Positions 4,962-25,713 of a stretch of DNA of 39,145 nucleotides are shown piece after piece. A program made the position numbers and the translations under genes. The stretch spans positions 1 to 39,145 of IMG/VR virus record IMGVR_UViG_3300036851_000192; one strand, written 5' to 3'. The notes beneath the pieces were generated by a model. It was given only the letters and a program-made list of their open reading frames with translations, was not told where the DNA came from and made no database searches. Position 1 is the stretch's first letter, and every line of letters starts with the position of its first letter. The stretch is from a virus.

Positions 4962-5556
4962 TGCCCTCGCCTTTAACAAGCGTGCTCGTGGGCTTCGGCT
5001 CGGCGAGGATCACGCCGTGCGGCCCCGCGGTGAATGTCGTAGGGTCCTGCACCTGCGAGAACTGCACCGAGGCGAGCGGCCCCTTCGCACCGACGAAGAC
5101 GTGCGGCTGCGCCTCGTACGGGTCGCCCTGGGCTTCCCTCACGATGATGTAGAGGCATTTCGCGAGCTCGTCCAGGCGCCCGAACCACTGTTCCCAGCGG
5201 TTGCCCTCGATCTCGACCAGGAGGTAATGCGTCTTCACCTGGTGCCCGGTCACCTCGCACGTTGTGCTCGCCGGAAGCGGCGCGTCATTGCCGGTGTAGA
5301 GCGAATAGTCACCCCCGAGCATCTTCGTGAAGGCGAGCAGCTTTCGGCTCTTGATCTCGGGGCGGAACTTCGCCCGCAGGAGCTTCCCCGTGAGGTTCAG
5401 CATGATCATCTCGACGGCCTGGGCGAGGTCGACCACGTCGTCGAACTTGAGCTCGAAGGTGCGGCCGCAGGCGACGATCTTGCCCTTGCCGCCATCGACC
5501 GCGAATTCCTCGATGATGCGCCGGCGCGCGACTTCCTTCGGCGGGATCCACTTCAT
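4954..5556 (-). CDS. Conserved phage protein between portal and Bbp19-like gene, function unknown
   Basis: The 200-residue protein is not recognised by motif. It begins with a basic MKWIPPKEVARRR segment, has mixed alpha/beta character and shows no membrane segment or obvious catalytic motif. The start overlaps the portal stop by one base and the end overlaps the Bbp19-like gene by 8 bases, so it is translationally coupled to virion genes. By position it is probably a head-related structural or assembly protein. Confidence 0.7.
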   Translation of the reverse strand: MKWIPPKEVARRRIIEEFAVDGGKGKIVACGRTFELKFDDVVDLAQAVEMIMLNLTGKLLRAKFRPEIKSRKLLAFTKMLGGDYSLYTGNDAPLPASTTCEVTGHQVKTHYLLVEIEGNRWEQWFGRLDELAKCLYIIVREAQGDPYEAQPHVFVGAKGPLASVQFSQVQDPTTFTAGPHGVILAEPKPTSTLVKGEGNA

Positions 5557-7178
5557 CAGGCGGCTTGCTTTGCTCTCTCGGCGAGAACGTCGGTCACAAC
5601 GGCTTTCATGTTCGCCTGCTGCGCGGCTGCGGCCTTCTGCTCGCGGCGCGCTTTCACCTCGTCCTCGTCGGGGATGAGATTCGCCGGCACGCCCAGGAGC
5701 TCGGCGCGGTGCCTGCGCGCCTCGTCCCAGTTGTAAAGGTCGACCGCATCGGTGAGCCCGGCCCCCAGCTGCGCACCGAGCGCGCCCTCGTAGCGATCCA
5801 TCGCCGCCACGTCGACGGCCTTCTGTGCCCGGGCAATCGGCGAGTTATAGGTGACGCCGATCGAGCGGCTCGCCTCCATGATCGAGCGCGGCGCGGGCGG
5901 CAGCACGCCCGCCCGGTAGGCGATGCCGAAGCAGCGCTTGACGAGCCACTGCAGGTATTCCGACTGCATGCGCCCGTAGATCGGGCCGAGCAGCTGCCGG
6001 ATGAGCTCGACGCGCACGAGGATCTCGGTCGCCGTGGGCGGGGTGCCGGCCTTCAGCTGCGGCTCAAGCTGATCGGCCATGAAGATCCTGCGCACCGCGC
6101 GCTGCAGCCGGTCGAGCTCGAGCACCGCGACGTCGAACTTCCCGGCCGGCTGGATCGGCCAGAAGTTATCTTTGGCCGCCATCACGATCACCTTGCGCGG
6201 GCCGACCCGGATCGAGCGGGCGTTGAGCACGCCATCGTCAACCGCGCCATACATGCCAGAGAGGGCGAGGTCCATGTTTCCGAGGTCATACTTCACGACC
6301 TCGTTGAGCGTCTTCATGTCGGGCAGCGCTTCGAACGCAGGCCCGAAGGCGTAGGCCGAGCCCGGCACCGGGCGCCAGCGCGGCACACCGAGCGGGTTCT
6401 CGTGATAGCCCGACTCGCGCACGATCTTCTTCGTGTCGGTCTCGATGTGCACCGAGGCAAACGGCAGGTTGACCGAGAACATGCCGTGCGGGCCGGTGCG
6501 CGGGTAGGTACAGCGCACGAATTGCACCTGCTCGTCGGGCTTGGTGCGGGCGAGCTCGCGCACCTTCTCCGAGAGCATCTCGGCGCCGTAGTCGCGTTCC
6601 GCCTGCTCGGCTGAAAGCGCGAATTCATTGAACGCGGTGTCAACCGGCCCGCCTGGACGCGAGCAGGCGAAATAGCTATTCGGCAGCGGCCACTCGTCGA
6701 AGCGGTAGCCGCCCTCGTCGGGGTCCTCGTCGGCGAACATCCCGAACATGCCGGCGATGGCCATGTCGAGCATGCAGTCGAAGCTCACCGCGTCGAAGTT
6801 CGACGAATGAACGTTTTCCCAGATGAAATCGGCGGACTCGTCGAGCCAGCGGTGTTCCTCGTCGGTCTCATCGCCGAGCTCAAGGCCAGGCCAGCGCGAA
6901 TTCGAAGGCGTGAGCCCCGACTGCAGGCCCGAGGCGAGGATGCGCGCGCCGTCGGTGCCGGTGCCGTCGAGAAGATCGGCCTGCAGGGTCTTCGCGGTCG
7001 AGGCGTTCTGCGCGCCGACATCACCGCCGCTCGGGCTCCCTTGCGTCTCGAGCGCGACGCCGCGCAGCGGGTAGGTGTAGCGGTAGCACTGACGCCACGG
7101 CTCGTCGACGGTCGCAACGCGGCGAGCTTTCAGCTGCTCGAGCCGCTTCAGGAGCTTCGCGCCGTCGGCCCGCAGCAT
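5556..7178 (-). CDS. Portal (head-to-tail connector) protein
   Basis: The 540-residue protein has the size and pattern of T7 gp8-type portals. It starts with LKRLEQLKARR, has a WRQCYRYTYPL motif at about residue 31, a GLQSGLTPSNSRWP region, VSFDCMLDMAIAG and, late, GTPPTATEILVRVELIRQLLGP. That last segment is typical of the portal helix that precedes the long C-terminal region. Portals form the dodecamer through which DNA is packaged and ejected. The ATG at 7178 is 4 bases past the upstream stop. A longer in-frame extension to 7424 is arginine/serine-rich antisense-like sequence overlapping another gene and is rejected. Confidence 0.88.
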   Translation of the reverse strand: MLRADGAKLLKRLEQLKARRVATVDEPWRQCYRYTYPLRGVALETQGSPSGGDVGAQNASTAKTLQADLLDGTGTDGARILASGLQSGLTPSNSRWPGLELGDETDEEHRWLDESADFIWENVHSSNFDAVSFDCMLDMAIAGMFGMFADEDPDEGGYRFDEWPLPNSYFACSRPGGPVDTAFNEFALSAEQAERDYGAEMLSEKVRELARTKPDEQVQFVRCTYPRTGPHGMFSVNLPFASVHIETDTKKIVRESGYHENPLGVPRWRPVPGSAYAFGPAFEALPDMKTLNEVVKYDLGNMDLALSGMYGAVDDGVLNARSIRVGPRKVIVMAAKDNFWPIQPAGKFDVAVLELDRLQRAVRRIFMADQLEPQLKAGTPPTATEILVRVELIRQLLGPIYGRMQSEYLQWLVKRCFGIAYRAGVLPPAPRSIMEASRSIGVTYNSPIARAQKAVDVAAMDRYEGALGAQLGAGLTDAVDLYNWDEARRHRAELLGVPANLIPDEDEVKARREQKAAAAQQANMKAVVTDVLAERAKQAA

Positions 7179-7182
7179 GCGG

Positions 7183-7458
7183 CTAGGCGCCGAGCGTCGG
7201 TTTGCCGGGCTTCGCCTGGGGCAGCGTGAACGGCAGGTCGATGATGCTGTCGCCCATGCCGCCGGTCGCGAGGAGCGAGGAGCGCCTGCGCCGGCGCCTG
7301 GCGAGCGTCTGCTGCTGAATCGCGGTCTGCTGGGCCTGCGCGGTGATCTCGGCGGCGATCTGCGCGCCCTTCTCCACCTGCTGCGCTGGCGTGGGGGCCG
7401 GCGGCGGCAGCGGAAGATCCGCAATCGCTTGCCAGGCGTGGCTTATGACGGGCGGCAC
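7183..7458 (-). CDS. Small conserved protein preceding the portal
   Basis: The 91-residue protein has a proline-rich start, an ITAQAQQTAIQQQ helix, then RRRRRRSSLLATGGMG and a C-terminal KPTLGA. The basic stretch followed by SLLATGG, with a TLG ending, recurs in small proteins upstream of podovirus portal genes; the function is unknown. It begins 1 base after the preceding stop and ends 4 bases before the portal ATG. Confidence 0.7.
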   Translation of the reverse strand: MPPVISHAWQAIADLPLPPPAPTPAQQVEKGAQIAAEITAQAQQTAIQQQTLARRRRRRSSLLATGGMGDSIIDLPFTLPQAKPGKPTLGA

Positions 7459-10849: not shown

Positions 10850-11613
10850 TGCACCGCCGCGGGCGGGAGCTCGCCCTGGTATTTCTGCCAGAAATTCTTC
10901 GGCCCGAAGAGCGTCGCCGGCCGCAGGTATTCCCCCATCCCCTCGCGACCGGCCCACTCTCGACACTTCTTCGCGATGATGGCCCGCATGTCGTCGGCGG
11001 TTCCGCCCTCGCGCAACCGAGCGACGATGAGGTCGATGTTCGCCTTCACCGGCTGGTAGTTCTTCCCGGCTTTTTCGTTCAGGAAGGCGAGGATCTCGAC
11101 GGCCTGGGCGCGCAGCAGCCTCGCCTTTTCGCTGTCGTGGCCGTTCAGACCCTGGCGCGCATCGTCTGGCGGCAGCCCGACATCGCCTTTGATCTTCTTT
11201 GGCTTTTGGCTGTTGGTTCTTGGTTCTTGGTTATTGGGAGCATTGCCTTCGCTATGCGAACGCATTGCGCCATCCGATGCCTTCGCATCACTTTCGGAGT
11301 GCCAGCGCTTTTCAGCTGAGCCTCTCGCCTTCTGCGACTTTTCCTGCGCCTTGGCGATCTCCTTGTCGGCCCGGGCGTTGTGCCAGCCGTCGGGGCCCTC
11401 GGTCCAAAACTCGCCGAGCACGACGTCGACCGCCATCCTCTCGGCGTGGGTTCGAGCTCGCACCAGCCGATAAATCGCCTGCTGGTCCAGCGGCAGCGGC
11501 CGCTCGGTCGCATAGGTCACGTCGAGCATCCGCCGATAGGCCGCGTCCTCGAGCATCGAAAGGTGCGCGGTGTCCTTTGCATAGTCCCCGATGTGATGCG
11601 GGTAGTAGTTCAT
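10846..11613 (-). CDS. YdaU/DUF1376-type replication-associated protein with Phg_2220 C-terminal domain
   Basis: The 255-residue protein starts MNYYPHHIGDYAKDTAHLS and continues AYRRMLDVTY, the DUF1376 (YdaU) signature of phage replication modules. Residues about 95-155 are a charged, low-complexity linker. The C-terminal 85 residues (ILAFLNEKAGKNYQPV, then YLRPATLFGPKNFWQKYQ) match the conserved phage replication C-terminal domain Phg_2220_C. Such proteins act at the phage origin, much like lambda O; no helicase gene is present, so host helicase recruitment is likely. The ATG at 11613 has an AAGGG site and overlaps the dam stop. Confidence 0.82.
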   Translation of the reverse strand: MNYYPHHIGDYAKDTAHLSMLEDAAYRRMLDVTYATERPLPLDQQAIYRLVRARTHAERMAVDVVLGEFWTEGPDGWHNARADKEIAKAQEKSQKARGSAEKRWHSESDAKASDGAMRSHSEGNAPNNQEPRTNSQKPKKIKGDVGLPPDDARQGLNGHDSEKARLLRAQAVEILAFLNEKAGKNYQPVKANIDLIVARLREGGTADDMRAIIAKKCREWAGREGMGEYLRPATLFGPKNFWQKYQGELPPAAVQ

Positions 11614-12476
11614 GCGGCCCTTCCCTCCGCGGCGCGCGCCTTCGCCAATGCATTAGCAGCGGCGGCGTTGAGCCAGAGCACCTCGGTTCGGGGTCTTGCC
11701 CCGTCGGCCATGTGCGGTCGCTCGTGGCGCTCCCAGTCGTGGAAGAGCTCGCGGTCGTAAAGGTCGCAGGCGTACCCAGACAAGACGACCATCCCCCTGC
11801 CGGCGCGCAGCGCGCCGGCGAGCCGCCTGTGATCTTCGTCCGACATCTCGTGCCGGTAGGCGCGGTGCGTTCCGCCAGCGTCGAAGCCGCGGGTCGCGTG
11901 CACGTAAGGCGGGTCGACGTAGTGAAGCGTGTCCGCGGCGTCGTGCATGCGGATGACGTCGAGGGCTGATCGGTTCTCGATGATCACCCCGCGCAGACGG
12001 TCGATGATCTGAGGCAGCGCGTCGGGGTAATTGCGCCAGTCGCCGGCCGGGATGCTGCCGCGATTCTTCTTCGAATACGTCCGAAATCCCGTGCGCTGCG
12101 GACTCTGATCACGGTTGGGCCTGGTGAGGTTGCCGCCGAAGCCCATCAGGCTCCGCATCACCGTGCGCCGAGCGCGCTCTATGGGGTCTTCGGCGAAAAG
12201 GAAACTTTGATGGAACTCCTCTCGGGAGAACGGGGTGAGCTCGATCGCGCGCACGAGCTCGTCGCCACGGTCGCGCAGCACGCGGAACAGATTCACGATC
12301 TCCCCGTCGAGGTCGTTGTAAACCTCTGCGCATGCCTTGGGCTTTCGCATCAGCACCGACGCGGCGCCGCCGTAGGGCTCGACGTAGGCGCGGTGCTCTG
12401 GGAAGAAGCCGATGATCCAGGGCGCGAGCCGCCACTTCCCGCCGTGGTATCGCAGCACCGGGCGCGTCGGCGTCAC
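11610..12476 (-). CDS. dam: D12-class N6-adenine DNA methyltransferase
   Basis: The 288-residue protein has D12-class motifs in order: YHGGKWRLAPW (residues 10-20), VEPYGGAASVLMRK (motif I, 32-45), and the catalytic VDPPY (187-191). It transfers methyl groups from AdoMet to adenine in DNA, probably protecting phage DNA from host restriction. The GTG at 12476 overlaps the TGA that ends the restored frame of the upstream gene (GTGA). It is preferred over the 16-residue-longer ATG at 12524, whose extra residues are the antiparallel tail of that gene. Target sequence unknown. Confidence 0.88.
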   Translation of the reverse strand: MTPTRPVLRYHGGKWRLAPWIIGFFPEHRAYVEPYGGAASVLMRKPKACAEVYNDLDGEIVNLFRVLRDRGDELVRAIELTPFSREEFHQSFLFAEDPIERARRTVMRSLMGFGGNLTRPNRDQSPQRTGFRTYSKKNRGSIPAGDWRNYPDALPQIIDRLRGVIIENRSALDVIRMHDAADTLHYVDPPYVHATRGFDAGGTHRAYRHEMSDEDHRRLAGALRAGRGMVVLSGYACDLYDRELFHDWERHERPHMADGARPRTEVLWLNAAAANALAKARAAEGRAA

Positions 12477-12936
12477 GGCAGACGCTCCAAGATCACGAGA
12501 CGACGCTTCTTCGTCACGCCGCACCTACGCCAGCCGGCCATGAGGAAGCAGTACCCGGGGTTCGTGCTGCGCACCTTGCGCGGGTCGACGTAGGTGTAAT
12601 GGCGCTCACCCGGCCAGCGCCGCCAGGCGAACTCATCAGCCGCCCGAATGAGAATGCTGCTTTGCGGCGTACCCCCCCCTCGTTCCGAAACACGGCGCAG
12701 TTGATGCCGCGCTGGCCGTTATCGCTTTTGAACTTGCGCCACACGAAGAGCGCCCGCGCGTCGGGTGTGAGCAGAACCATCTTTCCGCCCGGGCCGACGA
12801 ACTGATCGACCTTGCGGCAATGCGCGCGCTGGCTGCTGTAGTGGCGGTCGAAGATCGCGAGCCCGGTCGGGTTGCCGTCGCGCACCTCGATCCAGGTCGC
12901 CCCGCCGATGAGGAACGGCTGCTCGGCGAGCATCAC
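12473..12936 (-). pseudogene. Conserved phage protein, frame broken in an 8-G tract
   Basis: The gene starts at GTG 12936 (or ATG 12933), overlapping the dcm stop, and reads well for about 85 residues (WIEVRDGNPTGLAIFDRHY, then LFVWRKFKSDNG and INCAVFRNEG). At a run of eight G (12672-12679) the frame fails; the same frame then gives low-complexity sequence to 12514. Reading the -1 frame after the run restores a natural continuation (SSILIRAADEFAWRRWPGER, YTYVDPRKVRSTNPGYCF, WRRCGVTKKRRLVILERLP). This ends at a TGA overlapping the dam GTG. The family recurs in phages; function unknown. Homopolymer error, phase variation and programmed slippage are all possible. Confidence 0.75.
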
Positions 12937-14585
12937 GCAGCGACCTCGATCACGCGATCTTCGAACTGAGCGCGGGCGATGGCCGCTGCGATGGGCGGGC
13001 AGACGCTGTTTCCGACCATGCGGACCTGGGCTTCTTTCGGCAGCGGGCGACCGTCGACCTCGACGTCGATCAGGTACTCATCGGGAAAGCCTTGCGCCCG
13101 GTAGAGCTCGCGCGGCGCGAGCATGCGCATGCCGATGTCGGCGATCACGTATGGCTCGCCGTGCACGGTGACGAGGCCGAAGCGGTCGGCGCCGGTCACC
13201 GTGCGCATCGGCACGTCGAGCGCTACCGCATCGTTCGAGCCGTAATACTTCACCATGAAGGCGCGGATCTCGGCCTGATGATTGCCCTGCGCCATCACCG
13301 CCGGCATCGGCCGGAAGAGGTCGCCCTGGCCGCCGTTCGTGTTCGAGGTGTAGAAGTTCGACAGGTGCGACACGACGAGCGCGTTGTGATCGCGCGCGGT
13401 CACTGTGTCGATCGGCTGCGCGAGCTTCGAGCCCGGGGTCTCGTGCCCGCCGTAGTGCTTCGCCATGAACGCGGCGACCAGCTGCGCCCCGTTCTGTGTC
13501 GGCACGATCGTCGGCATGGGCCGCTCGATCGAGATCGCCCGCGGCGCCTGGCCTTCGCGCTCGCCGTAGCGGGAGGTGAAGAAGGGCGCGAGCAGCAGGT
13601 GCTCGGCCTTCGAGGTGATCGTCGAGAGCGGCGCGCGGGCGTGCTGGCAATAGCGGCCGTTGCCGCCCGTCTGCCCGATGCGCGCGATGTAGGGCGTCAC
13701 GAGGGCGCGGTCGCCACGGTTCGCGCCGGTAATCGTGCGCATGGGCTCGTCGATGCCCCAGACGCGCGGCTCGGCGCCGTGCATCACGGGCACGATGAAG
13801 GGCTCGGGATTCTCGATCACGAACTTGCGCATGCCGCGGGCGATTCGCCTCATCGTGTTCTCCGCGAGCGGCCGCTTCACGCCGTAGCGCTTCGCCTGGT
13901 CGCGCGTGAGGAAGATCGAGTAGGTCGGCAGGGACCAGGTGATGCATTCCGCCGCGGTGCGGTGAGGGGTGAGGCCGCGGCCATGCGTGGGCGTCGGCCA
14001 CACGATCGGCTGTCCGTCGCAGCGCGCCACGAGGAAGAGCCGGTTACGGGTCGTCGGCGCGCCGTAGTCGCACGCGGCGAGCTCGCGCCACTCGACGCTG
14101 TAGCCGAGGGCCTTCAGCTTCCCGACCCAGATCCTGAACGTGAACCCGGTGCGCTCCGGGCATGGCTTGCCGTTCGGCAGGAGCGGGCCCCAGTCTTCGA
14201 ACTCCTCAACGTTCTCGAGGATGATCACGCGCGGGCGCACCGCCTTCGCCCAGCGCACGACTACCCAGGCGAGGCCCCGGATCTTCTTGTCGACGGGCTT
14301 GCCGCCTTTGGCCTTGCTGAAGTGCTTGCAATCGGGCGACGCCCAGAGGAGCCCGGGGCGCGACCGGCATGCCTTGCGCGGGTCGACCTTCCAGACGTCC
14401 TCGCAGTAGTGCTTCGTGGCGGGGTGATTCGCCTGGTGCAGCGCGATCGCCTCGCGGTCGTGATTGATCGCGACGTCGGGCGAGCGCCCGAGGCCATGCT
14501 CGATTCCGAGGGAGGCCCCTCCCCCTCCGGCGAACGAGTCGACTATGAGCTCGTCCTGGTACAGCCGAAGCGCTGGTGCGCGCAT
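12933..14585 (-). CDS. dcm: DNA cytosine-C5 methyltransferase with repeated target-recognition region
   Basis: The 550-residue protein shows C5-methyltransferase motifs: motif I VDSFAGGGGASLGIE (15-29), catalytic Cys86 in SPDCKHFSKAKGG (a PDC variant of the usual PPCQ), ENVEEF (124-129), TTRNRLFLVA (178-187) and a C-terminal MVGNSVCPP. Residues about 281-475, the presumed target-recognition region, contain six imperfect repeats of P-x-x-T-I/V-T followed by a Leu/Val-rich strand. It methylates cytosine at an unknown site, probably against restriction. It is the third gene after the minus promoter, so expression begins early in lytic growth. The ATG at 14585 follows a G-rich site. Confidence 0.9.
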   Translation of the reverse strand: MRAPALRLYQDELIVDSFAGGGGASLGIEHGLGRSPDVAINHDREAIALHQANHPATKHYCEDVWKVDPRKACRSRPGLLWASPDCKHFSKAKGGKPVDKKIRGLAWVVVRWAKAVRPRVIILENVEEFEDWGPLLPNGKPCPERTGFTFRIWVGKLKALGYSVEWRELAACDYGAPTTRNRLFLVARCDGQPIVWPTPTHGRGLTPHRTAAECITWSLPTYSIFLTRDQAKRYGVKRPLAENTMRRIARGMRKFVIENPEPFIVPVMHGAEPRVWGIDEPMRTITGANRGDRALVTPYIARIGQTGGNGRYCQHARAPLSTITSKAEHLLLAPFFTSRYGEREGQAPRAISIERPMPTIVPTQNGAQLVAAFMAKHYGGHETPGSKLAQPIDTVTARDHNALVVSHLSNFYTSNTNGGQGDLFRPMPAVMAQGNHQAEIRAFMVKYYGSNDAVALDVPMRTVTGADRFGLVTVHGEPYVIADIGMRMLAPRELYRAQGFPDEYLIDVEVDGRPLPKEAQVRMVGNSVCPPIAAAIARAQFEDRVIEVAA

Positions 14586-14656: not shown

Positions 14657-14863
14657 TTACCGCTCGTTCCCGCTTCTTGTCGCCCGCAACAGCCGCTCGG
14701 CCATTACCTTGATCGCGTGACTTTTTCCGAGCAGCGCTTCCGCCAAGAGCACCCGGCCGGCTTCGCCGAGGTTGCCCTGGTGATGAACCTTCGCCACGAT
14801 CACGAGCGCCCGATAGGCCTCGTCGTTGAGCCTCACCTGTACCGGCTTGAGCTCGAGGCTCAC
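14657..14863 (-). CDS. Ribbon-helix-helix-like small protein
   Basis: The 68-residue protein begins with a short strand (KPVQVRLNDEAYRALVIVAK), followed by two helices, the layout of Arc/MetJ-type ribbon-helix-helix DNA-binding proteins. The GTG at 14863 overlaps the TGA of the Cro-like gene (GTGA), so the two regulators are coupled. It could be a second early regulator. A longer frame start at 14914 lies inside the Cro-like gene and is not preferred. Confidence 0.6.
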   Translation of the reverse strand: MSLELKPVQVRLNDEAYRALVIVAKVHHQGNLGEAGRVLLAEALLGKSHAIKVMAERLLRATRSGNER

Positions 14864-15102
14864 GCGGCCGCGCTTCGGAGCGACTGGCGCATCGCGTCGC
14901 GCGCCCGGAACCAATCGCGGATCTTTCGCGCCGTCGGCAGGCTGGGGTTCTCGGTGTCGCCCTGGCCGACCTTTTCGAGCGTGCCGTAAGGCACCCCGGA
15001 CTCCTCGGCGATGGTCGGCCAGTTGCCCTTTTCTTCTGCGAGCCGGGCGCGCAGGTACGTCCCGCTCAGTTCGTCGTCTTGGTCTTCTGGAAGTCTAGCC
15101 AT
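14860..15102 (-). CDS. Cro-like helix-turn-helix regulator
   Basis: The 80-residue protein has a helix-turn-helix at about residues 28-50 (WPTIAEESGVPYGTLEKVGQG) and no other domain. It is divergent from the larger repressor at 15158 and is the first gene of the long minus arm, the position of Cro in lambdoid switches. The ATG is itself inside an operator palindrome (15096-15111) and lies 8 bases after a -10 element, so the mRNA is probably leaderless. There is no ribosome site. By analogy it should compete with the repressor for the five operators. Confidence 0.8.
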   Translation of the reverse strand: MARLPEDQDDELSGTYLRARLAEEKGNWPTIAEESGVPYGTLEKVGQGDTENPSLPTARKIRDWFRARDAMRQSLRSAAA

Positions 15103-15111
15103 GTGTGGCTA
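15096..15111. promoter_or_regulatory. Operator palindrome O1 (TAGCCATGTGTGGCTA)
   Basis: A 16-bp perfect dyad TAGCCA-N4-TGGCTA covers the start codon of the Cro-like gene and touches the -10 element of its promoter. It is one of five such sites. Confidence 0.85.
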
Positions 15112-15140
15112 TGTTACTCAGCCACTAATGGCTAAGTCAA
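15111..15140 (-). promoter_or_regulatory. Promoter of the minus (lytic) arm
   Basis: On the minus strand TTGACT (15140-15135), an 18-bp spacer and TAACAT (15116-15111) form a sigma-70-like promoter. Operator O2 fills the spacer and O1 abuts the -10. Predicted initiation falls at or within a few bases of the cro ATG. It appears to be the only clear promoter for the roughly 29-kb arm. Confidence 0.7.
15119..15134. promoter_or_regulatory. Operator palindrome O2 (CAGCCACTAATGGCTA)
   Basis: A 16-bp dyad with one mismatch to the consensus ends lies exactly in the -35/-10 spacer of the minus promoter. Its centre is 23 bp from that of O1. A half site, TGGCTAA, follows at 15159 inside the start of the repressor gene. 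Confidence 0.8.
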
Positions 15141-15157
15141 GGGGATACCCTCCTTTC

Positions 15158-15721
15158 ATGGCTAAGACGAGGAAAAAACTAGAGCTTCCGACCGGCCTGC
15201 GCGGGGCGCTCGCGCGCAACCTCGCGACGATCATGGATCGCTCGCCCGCCTTCGACAGCCAGCCCAAGATCGCCGCGAAGTCGAAGATCGGCCAGTCGAC
15301 GATCGGCCGCATCCTGCGCGCCGAGGTGCCGGTAACGCTCGACAATCTGGAAGCGCTGGCGAAGGGGCTCACGCTCGAGCCGTGGCAGCTGCTCGTGCCT
15401 GGGCTCGATCCGAGCCGGCCGCCGAAGCTGGGCGAGGCATCGCTGCCGACCGACGAGCGCGAGGTGCTCGAGCTCTACCGGGGCGCGTCGAGCCGCTGGA
15501 AGATCGCGATCAAATACATGGCCGGGCTGCGGCACGAAGCCCAGCAAGAGGAAGCCGGCTCGTACATCCTTTCGAAGATATTCGCGACGCCGGTGCCCGA
15601 TCGGCGCGTGGAAGAAGCGTATGGACGGCCGCCGCAGCCAGGCGAGCACCGTTTCGTCGTGCACGATCGAGAAAGCCCTACATATCATCGGACGACGAGC
15701 AAAAAGCGGGGCAAAAAGTGA
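15158..15721 (+). CDS. CI-like phage repressor (HTH only, no peptidase domain)
   Basis: The 187-residue protein has an XRE-type helix-turn-helix at about residues 35-80 (IAAKSKIGQSTIGRILRAE, then LDNLEALAKGLTLEPWQLL). This is followed by a linker and a helical C-terminal region (LELYRGASSRWKIAIKYMAG). There is no S24/LexA-type Ser-Lys peptidase domain, so classical RecA-driven self-cleavage is not expected. Divergence from the Cro-like gene and the operators between them support a lysogeny repressor. The ATG at 15158 is preferred; an in-frame ATG at 15128 lies inside operator O2. Two lipoproteins follow in the same short operon. Confidence 0.8.
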   Translation: MAKTRKKLELPTGLRGALARNLATIMDRSPAFDSQPKIAAKSKIGQSTIGRILRAEVPVTLDNLEALAKGLTLEPWQLLVPGLDPSRPPKLGEASLPTDEREVLELYRGASSRWKIAIKYMAGLRHEAQQEEAGSYILSKIFATPVPDRRVEEAYGRPPQPGEHRFVVHDRESPTYHRTTSKKRGKK

Positions 15722-15777
15722 GTGCGAGCATGTGCGGAAATTCAGTGCGGGACGCTAATTGCGAGGAGTAGGCTGGC

Positions 15778-16029
15778 TTGGTGCGCACCCCGTTCAGACT
15801 CGTAGGCGACACGATCTCCCCGGACCTCATCGAGGCGCTCGAGCACCTGCTCGACGAAGCGAAAAGTGGACGTCTGATCGGGTTCGCCTACGCCGCGATG
15901 TATAAGGGCCGCACGTACATCGTCGACACCGCCGGCGAGGCCAGGCGAAACCCCACCTTCACCCGCGGCATGCTGCGCGCCCTGGACGATCGGCTCGGCA
16001 TTTCGACCGGATCGCTGCCCGCGGCATGA
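15778..16029 (+). CDS. Small conserved phage protein
   Basis: The 83-residue protein starts at TTG 15778 or GTG 15781 behind GAGGAG. Its core (LIGFAYAAMYKGRTYIVDTA, then RNPTFTRGMLRALDD) resembles a widespread uncharacterised family in phages of proteobacteria. Expressed with the repressor, it may be active in lysogeny. It overlaps the lipoprotein start by 4 bases (ATGA). Confidence 0.65.
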   Translation: MVRTPFRLVGDTISPDLIEALEHLLDEAKSGRLIGFAYAAMYKGRTYIVDTAGEARRNPTFTRGMLRALDDRLGISTGSLPAA

Positions 16030-16226
16030 ACTGGCGCCATGCCCTGCCCGCCTTGCTGCTGCTCGCCGGCTGCGCGACGACGTGGACTCAGGCCGGTAAA
16101 TCCGAGCTCGAGGTGAAGCGCGACCTCTACGAGTGCGAGAAGGACGCAGCGCCGATCCGGTCCCCGATTCGCGCCGAGGCCATGATCGAGCGCTGCATGG
16201 AGCTCAAGGGATACAGCGCCCGGTGA
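16026..16226 (+). CDS. Small lipoprotein
   Basis: The 66-residue protein has a signal segment (MNWRHALPALLLLAGC) with a lipobox LAGC and lipidated Cys16. A short mature part follows with two further cysteines and a MELKGYSAR ending. It should be anchored to the inner or outer membrane facing the periplasm. Because it lies downstream of the repressor it is a candidate lysogenic-conversion or superinfection-exclusion factor; this is inference. Confidence 0.75.
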   Translation: MNWRHALPALLLLAGCATTWTQAGKSELEVKRDLYECEKDAAPIRSPIRAEAMIERCMELKGYSAR

Positions 16227-16286
16227 TGACAGCCGCCGCGCGCGGTGAGATGATCGCGCTGCAAAGAAGCTGAAACGAGGTGCTCC

Positions 16287-16409
16287 ATGCGTACCTTGAT
16301 CATGATGATGCTCGTGGTCGTAATGCTCGCCGGTTGCCGGGTGAAGCTGCCCTGGGACCACGACGACGACGTGTGCAGCACCGCGACCTGCGCGTCGCAA
16401 CAGCAGTAG
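16287..16409 (+). CDS. Very small lipoprotein (40 residues)
   Basis: ATG 16287 follows ACGAGG. The product has a hydrophobic start MRTLIMMMLVVVMLAGC with lipobox LAGC and Cys17, then an acidic, Cys-containing tail ending SQQQ. It is the last gene before the terminator at 16443. It may pair with the lipoprotein just upstream. Confidence 0.6.
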   Translation: MRTLIMMMLVVVMLAGCRVKLPWDHDDDVCSTATCASQQQ

Positions 16410-16442
16410 CCCGCCTCGCCCGCCCGTAAGTAGTTGACCCGC

Positions 16443-16460
16443 GGGGGCTTGTCCCCCTTT
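16443..16460 (+). terminator. Terminator of the repressor operon
   Basis: GGGGG-CTTGT-CCCCC followed by TTT lies after the second lipoprotein and before the next promoter. It separates the lysogeny operon from the second plus operon. The U tract is short, so some read-through is possible. Confidence 0.6.
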
Positions 16461-16482
16461 CCTCGATTGTTTCCCGTGGAAC

Positions 16483-16498
16483 TAGCCATATGTGGCTT
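16483..16498. promoter_or_regulatory. Operator palindrome O3 (TAGCCATATGTGGCTT)
   Basis: A 16-bp dyad with one mismatch to TAGCCA-N4-TGGCTA overlaps the first bases of the -35 of the second plus promoter. Confidence 0.8.
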
Positions 16499-16525
16499 GA
16501 CATGTTAGCCACAGGTGGCTAGAGT
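16497..16525 (+). promoter_or_regulatory. Promoter of the second plus operon (recombination/integrase arm)
   Basis: A perfect -35 TTGACA (16497-16502), a 17-bp spacer and TAGAGT (16520-16525) form a strong sigma-70-like promoter. Operator O4 fills the spacer, with O3 and O5 on either side, so it should be shut off in lysogeny. A ribosome site GGGAGG (16556-16561) precedes the first gene at 16565. Confidence 0.8.
16506..16521. promoter_or_regulatory. Operator palindrome O4 (TAGCCACAGGTGGCTA)
   Basis: A perfect consensus dyad sits between the -35 and -10 elements. Its centre is 23 bp from O3 and 22 bp from O5. Confidence 0.85.
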
Positions 16526-16527
16526 TT

Positions 16528-16543
16528 CAGCCGCACATGGCTG
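16528..16543. promoter_or_regulatory. Operator palindrome O5 (CAGCCGCACATGGCTG)
   Basis: A weaker 16-bp dyad lies over the predicted transcription start of the second plus promoter and completes a three-site array like lambda OL or OR. Confidence 0.7.
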
Positions 16544-24698: not shown

Positions 24699-24917
24699 TT
24701 ACAGGCCGAGCTTCTTCGTGATCCAGTCGGGCGCGACGTACCTCACCGCAGCGGCCGTTCGATTGCATGCGTTCAGCTTGCGGCAAACGGCGTGCATCGT
24801 GTTGTGCACCGTGCGCTCGCTCTTGCCGAGGATCTGCGCTATCTCGCCATTCGTCTTGCCGAGGCAGACCCATTCGATCACCTCGCGTTGCTTGTCGGTG
24901 AGCGGCTTGCTGCTCAC
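24699..24917 (-). CDS. Orphan LuxR/GerE-type helix-turn-helix protein
   Basis: The 72-residue protein is a stand-alone LuxR-type DNA-binding domain: LTDKQREVIEWVCLGKTNGEIAQIL at residues 6-30 and KSERTVHNTMHAVCRKLN at 32-49. There is no sensor domain. The GTG at 24917 overlaps the DUF1353 stop (GTGA). It is the last gene of the minus arm, convergent with the integrase. It could regulate late genes or integrase or act on host promoters; the sequence does not decide. Confidence 0.8.
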   Translation of the reverse strand: MSSKPLTDKQREVIEWVCLGKTNGEIAQILGKSERTVHNTMHAVCRKLNACNRTAAAVRYVAPDWITKKLGL

Positions 24918-25333
24918 TGCGGCGGCGCGACCTCGGGCTCTGCGCGCTCTTCGTAGTACGACCCGCCGAAGGCGCGCACCGCCGAATACATGAGCGAGCG
25001 GCGCCAAGCCGGGATGCCCTCGGCTTCCATCGCGGCGCGGAAGACCTGATCGGCGAGCTCGCGCGGCGCGCGCACGGCGTAGAGGTAATCGTGCAGGACC
25101 GCGGAACGGTGCGCCACGTTGCCGACCAGCCAGTAGGCGAACGGGATGCGCGGCACCGAGGCGAAGTCCATCTCGAAGCCGGCCGGAACGGTGAGCATGT
25201 AGCCGACAGCGCCCGGCACCTTGGCGCGGTGTAGCTCGTCGGTGTCGAGGTAAGCGCTGAAGGGCTCGGCGAGCTTCCAGCGATCGCCGCTGCCCTTGAT
25301 CACCTGCAGGAGCGTGAGGAAGTTCACCTTCAC
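24914..25333 (-). CDS. DUF1353 phage protein
   Basis: The 139-residue protein has the DUF1353 signature: EMDFASVPRIP, then HRSAVLHDYLY, ADQVFRAAME and an AVRAFGG motif near the end. DUF1353 proteins are common near phage lysis and tail genes; their activity is not established. The GTG at 25333 overlaps the endolysin TGA and is preferred over a GTG 12 bases upstream. Confidence 0.8.
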   Translation of the reverse strand: MKVNFLTLLQVIKGSGDRWKLAEPFSAYLDTDELHRAKVPGAVGYMLTVPAGFEMDFASVPRIPFAYWLVGNVAHRSAVLHDYLYAVRAPRELADQVFRAAMEAEGIPAWRRSLMYSAVRAFGGSYYEERAEPEVAPPQ

Positions 25334-25713
25334 GGGTAGCTCCACAGCCAGGGCCGCGGCTGCCCGGGCGCGTTCGGCAGGTCATCCAGGTGAATGAAGC
25401 GCTTGCCGTGCGGGCCGTGCTGCTTGACCCCGATGCCGATGAAGCCTTCCTCGATCGCGACCTGCACCAGGCGCAGCGCCTTGTCGCCGACGACCACGAT
25501 GTCGAACGCGGCGCGCGTGTGCGGGCCGTCGCGACCGGTCGAGCTTTTGTCCTCGTTATGGTCCGGGCAGCGATCGCCGCTCGACACGATGAACGGGAAG
25601 CCGCAGCGCACGCGCACCCGCTCGAGCCGCTCGATCGAGGGCATCGGGATCGTCATGCGGCCGCAATGCCTGCAGGCGAGCTCTTCGCGCGTGAAGTGCG
25701 GCGTCAGCTTCAC
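25330..25713 (-). CDS. M15A-type peptidase endolysin
   Basis: The 127-residue protein matches the peptidase M15_3 family: LTPHFTREELACRHCG at the start, SSGDRCPDHNED at about 44-55, GPHTRAAFDI (His65, Asp71) and RFIHLDDLP (His108), the likely zinc ligands. It cuts peptide cross-links of peptidoglycan, probably as a D-Ala-D-Ala-type peptidase, during lysis. It lacks its own export signal, so a holin is needed. The GTG at 25713 overlaps the TGA of the barrel gene. Confidence 0.88.
   Translation of the reverse strand: MKLTPHFTREELACRHCGRMTIPMPSIERLERVRVRCGFPFIVSSGDRCPDHNEDKSSTGRDGPHTRAAFDIVVVGDKALRLVQVAIEEGFIGIGVKQHGPHGKRFIHLDDLPNAPGQPRPWLWSYP

Follow-up and report, generated by a model that had tools for sequence, protein, structure and literature searches.

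Introduction

The immunity region of phage lambda runs in the order cro, right operator (OR), repressor gene, small genes, left operator (OL) and recombination genes, and its OL and OR lie about 2.4 kb apart. For the temperate Salmonella phage SPC32H, one report describes the repressor Rep as acting as a tetramer that is disassembled by the antirepressor Ant (PMC9638917), and in another, the domain between the N-terminal DNA-binding and C-terminal tetramerisation domains of Rep is termed the dimerisation domain (PMC9986798). We analysed a viral DNA of 39,145 bases (IMG/VR record IMGVR_UViG_3300036851_000192, positions 1 to 39,145; "the window" hereafter means this whole stretch), in which 16-bp dyads of the consensus TAGCCA-N4-TGGCTA lie in two clusters on either side of a repressor gene. 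A preliminary description, made from the letters of the window, had proposed that two small helix-turn-helix (HTH) proteins bind these dyads as in lambdoid phages. Our analysis indicates that the dyads are probably the immunity operators of a lambda-like OR/OL switch, in which one dyad would be read both by a Cro-like protein and by a short repressor that is not cleaved.

The immunity region of the window is a mirror image of the lambda order. As in lambda, two operator clusters flank the equivalent of cI, sites are located in promoter spacers, cro is divergent, and a recombination arm lies behind OL. Unlike lambda, the repressor has no detected S24 domain, OR consists of two strong sites and a half-site instead of three, and the OL-OR distance is 1.4 kb. 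With SPC32H and Escherichia phage phiV10 (Uetakevirus), the window shares the order small open reading frame (ORF), OR, repressor gene, small ORFs, OL, RecE and, further on, integrase gene, as well as a homologous repressor domain, a virion protein and dyad arrays at OR and OL. However, the operator of SPC32H and phiV10 is TTACC-N5-GGTAA in our scan, the phiV10 integrase is annotated as P4-type whereas that of the window is a serine integrase, and both phages have, besides their OR and OL arrays, a third pair of such TTACC-N5-GGTAA sites within the replication arm, to which nothing in the window corresponds. The members of this third pair are 62 bases apart in both SPC32H and phiV10 (L081, 10973 and 11035; L080, 1280 and 1342; compared loci are designated by L numbers).

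Results and discussion

Operator dyads and early promoters

The five dyads were all located where the preliminary description had placed them (Table 1), with starts 23 bp (15096 to 15119, and 16483 to 16506) and 22 bp (16506 to 16528) apart. When at most one mismatch was allowed, the window contained four matches, every one of them a reported dyad, against a mean of 0.01 and a maximum of 1 in 100 dinucleotide shuffles, and a search for further equal matches elsewhere in the window returned none. TAGCCA also ranked first of 180 permuted half-sites of equal composition (4 sites; next 3, mean 0.11), and 60 first-order Markov controls gave a mean of 0.017 sites with a maximum of 1. The totals were five against a mean of 0.35 expected at two mismatches, and nine against a shuffle mean of 5.76 at three, a total that 11 of the 100 shuffles reached. 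The unexceptional total at three mismatches agrees with palindromes due to chance or codon usage, but a chance origin of the four strict dyads is refuted by the 4 sites against 0.01 expected and by their conservation in diverged phages, and the probability left to that explanation is negligible.

The additional two-mismatch dyad (7429-7444) lies in the short gap upstream of a head-tail adaptor ORF (5556-7424, minus strand). It was considered as a further operator upstream of a late gene and rejected, as 0.35 such sites are expected by chance.

OR thus holds two strong dyads and one half-site, and OL two strong dyads and one with three mismatches. Three promoter-like sites were found between 14000 and 18000, against a shuffle mean of 0.5, and dyads 15119 and 16506 each sit in the -35/-10 spacer of one of two opposed promoters, as had been claimed. 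Both predicted HTH ORFs, at 14860 and 15158, exist and flank the OR cluster as divergent cro-like and repressor genes, while the second cluster of the same operator lies at the other early promoter, beyond the repressor gene; the OL/OR-like architecture of the preliminary description is thereby borne out. The same positions bear on whether the dyads might instead act as RNA hairpins, that is, as attenuators or terminators. Two dyads of the related locus L009 were flagged as terminator-like, but no window dyad was, the dyads lie in promoter spacers upstream of the expected transcription starts, and in the loci described below they keep a phasing of 22-24 bp with constant arms and variable four-base centres, so that we regard hairpins as very improbable.

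The start codons of both regulators fall within operator sequence. The cro-like ATG (15102) occupies positions 10-12 of dyad 15096 in the minus-strand reading, and because the -10 element ends at 15111, the cro mRNA would be nearly leaderless. A half-site ATGGCTA (15158-15164), absent from the preliminary description, lies in the OR register and contains the repressor ATG (15158), which takes the same place, positions 10-12, in the degenerate dyad at 15149-15164 and stands in the same register within full dyads of L009 (1383) and L017 (6737). Both start codons share one operator half-site register; we treat this as a lead, and alanine at position 2 could alone favour ATGGCT. The sequence 15149-15164 may function as an operator position, and the repressor might regulate its own gene through this start-codon half-site.

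Table 1. Features of the immunity region, in window coordinates
Feature	Coordinates	Strand	Basis and remarks
Cro-like HTH protein, 80 amino acids	14860-15102	-	phrog_9425 1.3e-16; all-helical model, predicted local distance difference test (pLDDT) 81.8
Operator dyad TAGCCATGTGTGGCTA (OR, cro side)	15096-15111		0 mismatches; start codon of the cro-like gene inside (15102-15100, minus)
Leftward early promoter (PR-like), TTGACT-18-TAACAT	15111-15140	-	consensus scan, 9/12
Operator dyad CAGCCACTAATGGCTA (OR), in leftward promoter spacer	15119-15134		1 mismatch
Degenerate third OR position	15149-15164		right half TGGCTA perfect, left half 1/6; repressor start codon 15158 inside
Repressor, 187 amino acids, HTH_3-like N-terminal domain	15158-15721	+	phrog_13326 1.9e-9; HTH_3 20.9 bits, below the cutoff of 23
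Small ORF, 83 amino acids, TTG start	15778-16029	+	no match above curated cutoff
Putative lipoprotein, 66 amino acids, rex-like position	16026-16226	+	LAGC lipobox by eye; no family above cutoff
Operator dyad TAGCCATATGTGGCTT (OL), overlaps start of -35	16483-16498		1 mismatch
Rightward early promoter (PL-like), TTGACA-17-TAGAGT	16497-16525	+	consensus scan, 10/12
Operator dyad TAGCCACAGGTGGCTA (OL), spacer and first two -10 bases	16506-16521		0 mismatches
Weak operator dyad CAGCCGCACATGGCTG (OL), near expected transcription start	16528-16543		3 mismatches; 22-bp phasing

A repressor homologous to the middle domain of SPC32H Rep

A profile of four repressors matched PDB entries 5d4z and 5d50 (both of a molecule named "Repressor" from a temperate Salmonella phage) at 3.1e-15 and 9e-15, and the window repressor as a single sequence gave 1.8e-5; 5d4z was also the top Foldseek match of its model (E 1.2e-3), although no match passed 0.001. 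We take 5d4z to cover Rep residues 92-198, with which its length of 107 residues agrees. According to PMC9986798, both entries are SPC32H Rep. A single BLASTP comparison with SPC32H Rep (6e-10) aligned Rep residues 97-159, starting at window repressor residue 19 and giving no alignment past residue 81, and the HTH_3 domain assigned to Rep by Pfam (109-150) lies inside this stretch. Residues ~21-61 of the SPC32H and phiV10 repressors match YdaS, below the curated cutoff. This N-terminal YdaS-like HTH is present in Rep and missing from the window repressor, whose sole HTH is the homologue of the Rep middle domain.

A Pfam scan of the window repressor detected no LexA/S24 domain, and its tail was modelled as helical, with no beta domain, at a pLDDT of 45-60; the C-terminal tetramerisation motif (CAD/TetDloop) is clear by sequence in L007, whereas the window tail has only this low-confidence model. 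These features weigh on the classical lambda mechanism, in which a cooperative, RecA-cleavable CI would be induced by autocleavage. The mirror-image gene order, the OL and OR arrays and the TAGCC-core relatives with S24 repressors (L061, L067, L068, L075) agree with such a mechanism, but the window repressor has no S24 match, its low-confidence tail shows no beta domain, and the closest structure is that of Rep, whose partner is an antirepressor; we consider it improbable. Because no S24 domain was found and the Rep N-terminal HTH is missing, induction by RecA-stimulated cleavage is not expected, and by analogy with SPC32H, an antirepressor might induce the phage instead.

The window switch belongs neither with lambda, for want of the S24 domain, nor with SPC32H, for want of the N-terminal HTH. 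An 846-amino-acid virion protein is 37-38% identical to its counterparts in Yersinia phage YeP5, SPC32H and phiV10, and the phage is a temperate podovirus of the epsilon15/phiV10/SPC32H type. The lambdoid likeness that had been proposed therefore stands for the immunity layout but not for the virion, which by this protein is of the epsilon15/SPC32H podovirus type, nor for the repressor, which has no detected S24 domain and is homologous to Rep.

The same dyad and layout in other phages

The operator had seemed phage-specific, but the same dyad and layout recur in L007/L024, L009 and L064/L045, and OR recurs in L017. Scans for two dyads retrieved L007 and L009 from viral contigs and L024 and L017 (Burkholderiales) from genome contigs, L024 being the same Pandoraea prophage as L007 (IMGVR_UViG_2895055527_000003). 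L007 and L009 have the order small leftward HTH gene, OR, rightward repressor gene, more small genes and OL, and their OL is built as in the window, with the first dyad running into the -35 element (TGGCTTGACA) and the second occupying the spacer. This fusion of OL promoter and operator is common to the window, L007, L009 and L064, with L064/L045 as a related second case. The OR dyads of L007 are weak (two mismatches), and the OR of L017 holds three dyads. When the window was compared by BLAST with these regions, DNA similarity was confined to the dyads, a 37-base cro stretch (L007) and matches of ~10-17 bases, and identity to the window proteins was 29-43% for Cro and 22-36% for the repressor. 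The Pandoraea prophage, with the operator, layout and OL promoter fusion of the window, differs from it in its terminase, replication and integrase families, and the cassette is therefore carried by unlike phage backbones.

The other stretches returned by the scans lack the regulators and were rejected as not being the cassette: three of the five contigs from the first viral pattern scan (L005, L006 and L008, with no Cro or repressor match), 19 of the 21 genome stretches, many of which resembled tandem or coding repeats (the other two were L017 and L024), and L031 and L032 among the four stretches of the second viral scan (L007 and L009 were the others). A 399-genome sample of the order of G001 gave one match, the known Pandoraea genome, which shows the exact double dyad to be uncommon in that order. 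Single-sequence pattern scans returned no close relatives of either regulator in viral contigs and none of the repressor in genome contigs. No earlier description of the TAGCCA operator was found in the literature searched, and one may exist elsewhere. Three AGCCA-N4-TGGCT dyads with 23-bp spacing were observed in a Bacteroidaceae contig (L014, 322-383); this contig had no Cro or repressor match, and its dyads are possibly operators of an unrelated regulator.

Recognition helices in the wider family

Profiles of both regulators brought in loci L042-L079. The window, L007, L009 and L017 were added, as were five phage records (L033-L037), and removal of ten near-duplicates (L046, L048, L052, L054, L057, L059, L062, L064, L070 and L072) left 37 loci, 33 of them with both genes; the close relatives L058, L060, L061 and L065 were retained in the counts. 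The operators of loci after L069 were read by eye from the OR stretch, as were those of L035 and L036, for which the automatic choice was spurious. In the 33 loci, TAGCCR-N4-YGGCTA dyads with at most one mismatch numbered 40 in 55,203 bases of OR and OL intervals against 5 in the remaining 184,987 bases. Four loci (the window, L007, L009 and L017) contribute 13 of the 40, and 27 are left without them; of these four, L007, L009 and L017 had been found by the motif itself and are circular evidence in this count. Fourteen of the 33 loci, the window included, carry at least two such dyads in their OR and OL intervals and were defined here as the TAGCC operator group. Other dyads occur at other loci, including TATCCG (L042, L043), TATCCC (L044, L047) and AACCCA (CF418P1).

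Pseudomonas phage PAJU2 and S24-type relatives (L058-L068, L075, L077 and L079) share the Cro family and the repressor HTH with the window; the 80-amino-acid window protein is 37% identical to the PAJU2 "putative repressor Cro". The TAGCC core occurs in L058, L060, L061, L065, L067, L068, L075, L077 and L079, and their right half is often CGGCTA, while PAJU2 itself lacks a TAGCC dyad at one mismatch. Unlike the window repressor, those of the four relatives tested (L061, L067, L068, L075) carry Peptidase_S24. The S24-type repressors, too, showed a single HTH, which is of this same kind and is paired with the same operator core.

The repressor helix pattern [GT]Q[ST]T[IV]GR[IVA]L was present in 13 of the 14 TAGCC loci and in 1 of the 19 others (Fisher 3e-7), a result that is suggestive of a recognition helix that tracks the operator; the patterns were chosen post hoc, and the loci are related by descent. 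These counts bear on the alternative that the repressor alone reads the dyads and that the 80-amino-acid protein has other targets, with no competition between Cro and CI for shared sites. The repressor helix tracks the operator better than does the Cro helix (VP[YF]xTxxK in 13 of 14 against 8 of 19, p 0.004; among the 14, the Cro match of L077 is truncated), as this alternative would have it. However, a Cro-like gene adjoins the array in the 33 counted loci, a window dyad covers its start codon, and the Cro helix also changes at the TATCCG operators (K to H, L042 and L043), which makes a repressor-only system rather unlikely. At these two loci, the repressor helix likewise differs from that of the TAGCC loci (QSTIGR to QSSINR), and the two changes together would be compatible with a possible switch of recognition code.

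A model for the immunity switch

Judged from sequence, the switch appears to be lambda-like in anatomy and of the SPC32H type, with another operator that is shared across phages. This reading is built on the dyads, the promoter-like sequences, the gene order, homology, and the fact that diverged phages keep both dyad and layout, and binding, cooperativity and OL-OR looping would follow from it by inference. OR would comprise dyads 15096 and 15119 and the decayed site at 15149, and OL dyads 16483, 16506 and 16528, 1.4 kb away past the repressor gene. In the lysogen, the 187-amino-acid repressor would occupy the spacer dyads, and because of this occupancy RNA polymerase would be excluded from both early promoters, so that the leftward operon, with its cro-like, methylase and replication genes, and the rightward one, from RecE to integrase, would be shut off. 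During lytic growth, the Cro-like protein would read the same dyad, and OL and OR could possibly be brought together by looping.

Several observations weigh against this model. Dyad 16528 alone is not significant, and its support is limited to the 22-bp phasing and to internal symmetry, with 5 of its 6 arm pairs symmetrical. The consensus scan found no rightward promoter for the repressor gene, and L017 showed no OL in the 580 bases examined beyond its repressor gene. The C-terminal half of the repressor, which bears on tetramerisation and looping, was modelled at low confidence. The Cro pattern discriminates less than that of the repressor, L009 keeps TAGCCA with a different repressor helix (FGTIRR), and a tree-corrected test offered only three independent pairs on supported branches, with which significance is unreachable (six changes of the TAGCC label are required on the Cro tree, which is poorly resolved). 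No antirepressor family was matched among the scanned ORFs, of which those without family matches remain candidates. The LexA box (CTGT-N8-ACAG) showed no excess, with four matches at one mismatch against 6.6 expected, and was rejected as a mark of an antirepressor promoter.

A broader proposal, which we advance only tentatively, is that TAGCC[A/G]-N4-[T/C]GGCTA could be an immunity code shared across phage types, read on different backbones by one HTH with unrelated C-terminal halves (an SPC32H-type tail or an S24 protease); the "dimerisation" domain of Rep might then descend from, or still be, this HTH. If so, mutual immunity would be expected between phages whose genomes are otherwise unrelated. 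The operator is searchable, and its pairing with the repressor helix would make immunity groups predictable from sequence in a large, mostly uncharacterised set of prophages. The locus would also join a lambda-like two-cluster switch to a repressor of the SPC32H type, a type controlled by an antirepressor, but without the N-terminal HTH of Rep, an absence that opens the role of the middle HTH_3 domain to direct testing.

Neighbouring genes

The two dyad clusters enclose the gene of the 187-amino-acid repressor together with three small ORFs. From the first promoter, the leftward arm encodes the Cro-like protein, a small ORF product, two DNA methylases, a primosomal protein and RusA, and from the second promoter, the rightward arm encodes a RecE-like exonuclease and the serine integrase. 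The two DNA methyltransferase genes of the leftward early operon span 11610-12524 and 12933-14585 (both minus strand), the second being of the C-5 cytosine type. Small lipoprotein-like ORFs, with a LAGC lipobox seen by eye, lie between the repressor gene and OL in the window (16026-16226 and ~16288-16410, both plus strand) and in L009 (1899-2384); no family matched above cutoff for the window 16026-16226 ORF or for that of L009. From their rex position, they are possible lysogeny-expressed superinfection-exclusion genes. Finally, a LuxR/GerE-type HTH protein (PF00196, 2.3e-13) is encoded at 24699-25385 on the minus strand, beside the serine integrase gene.

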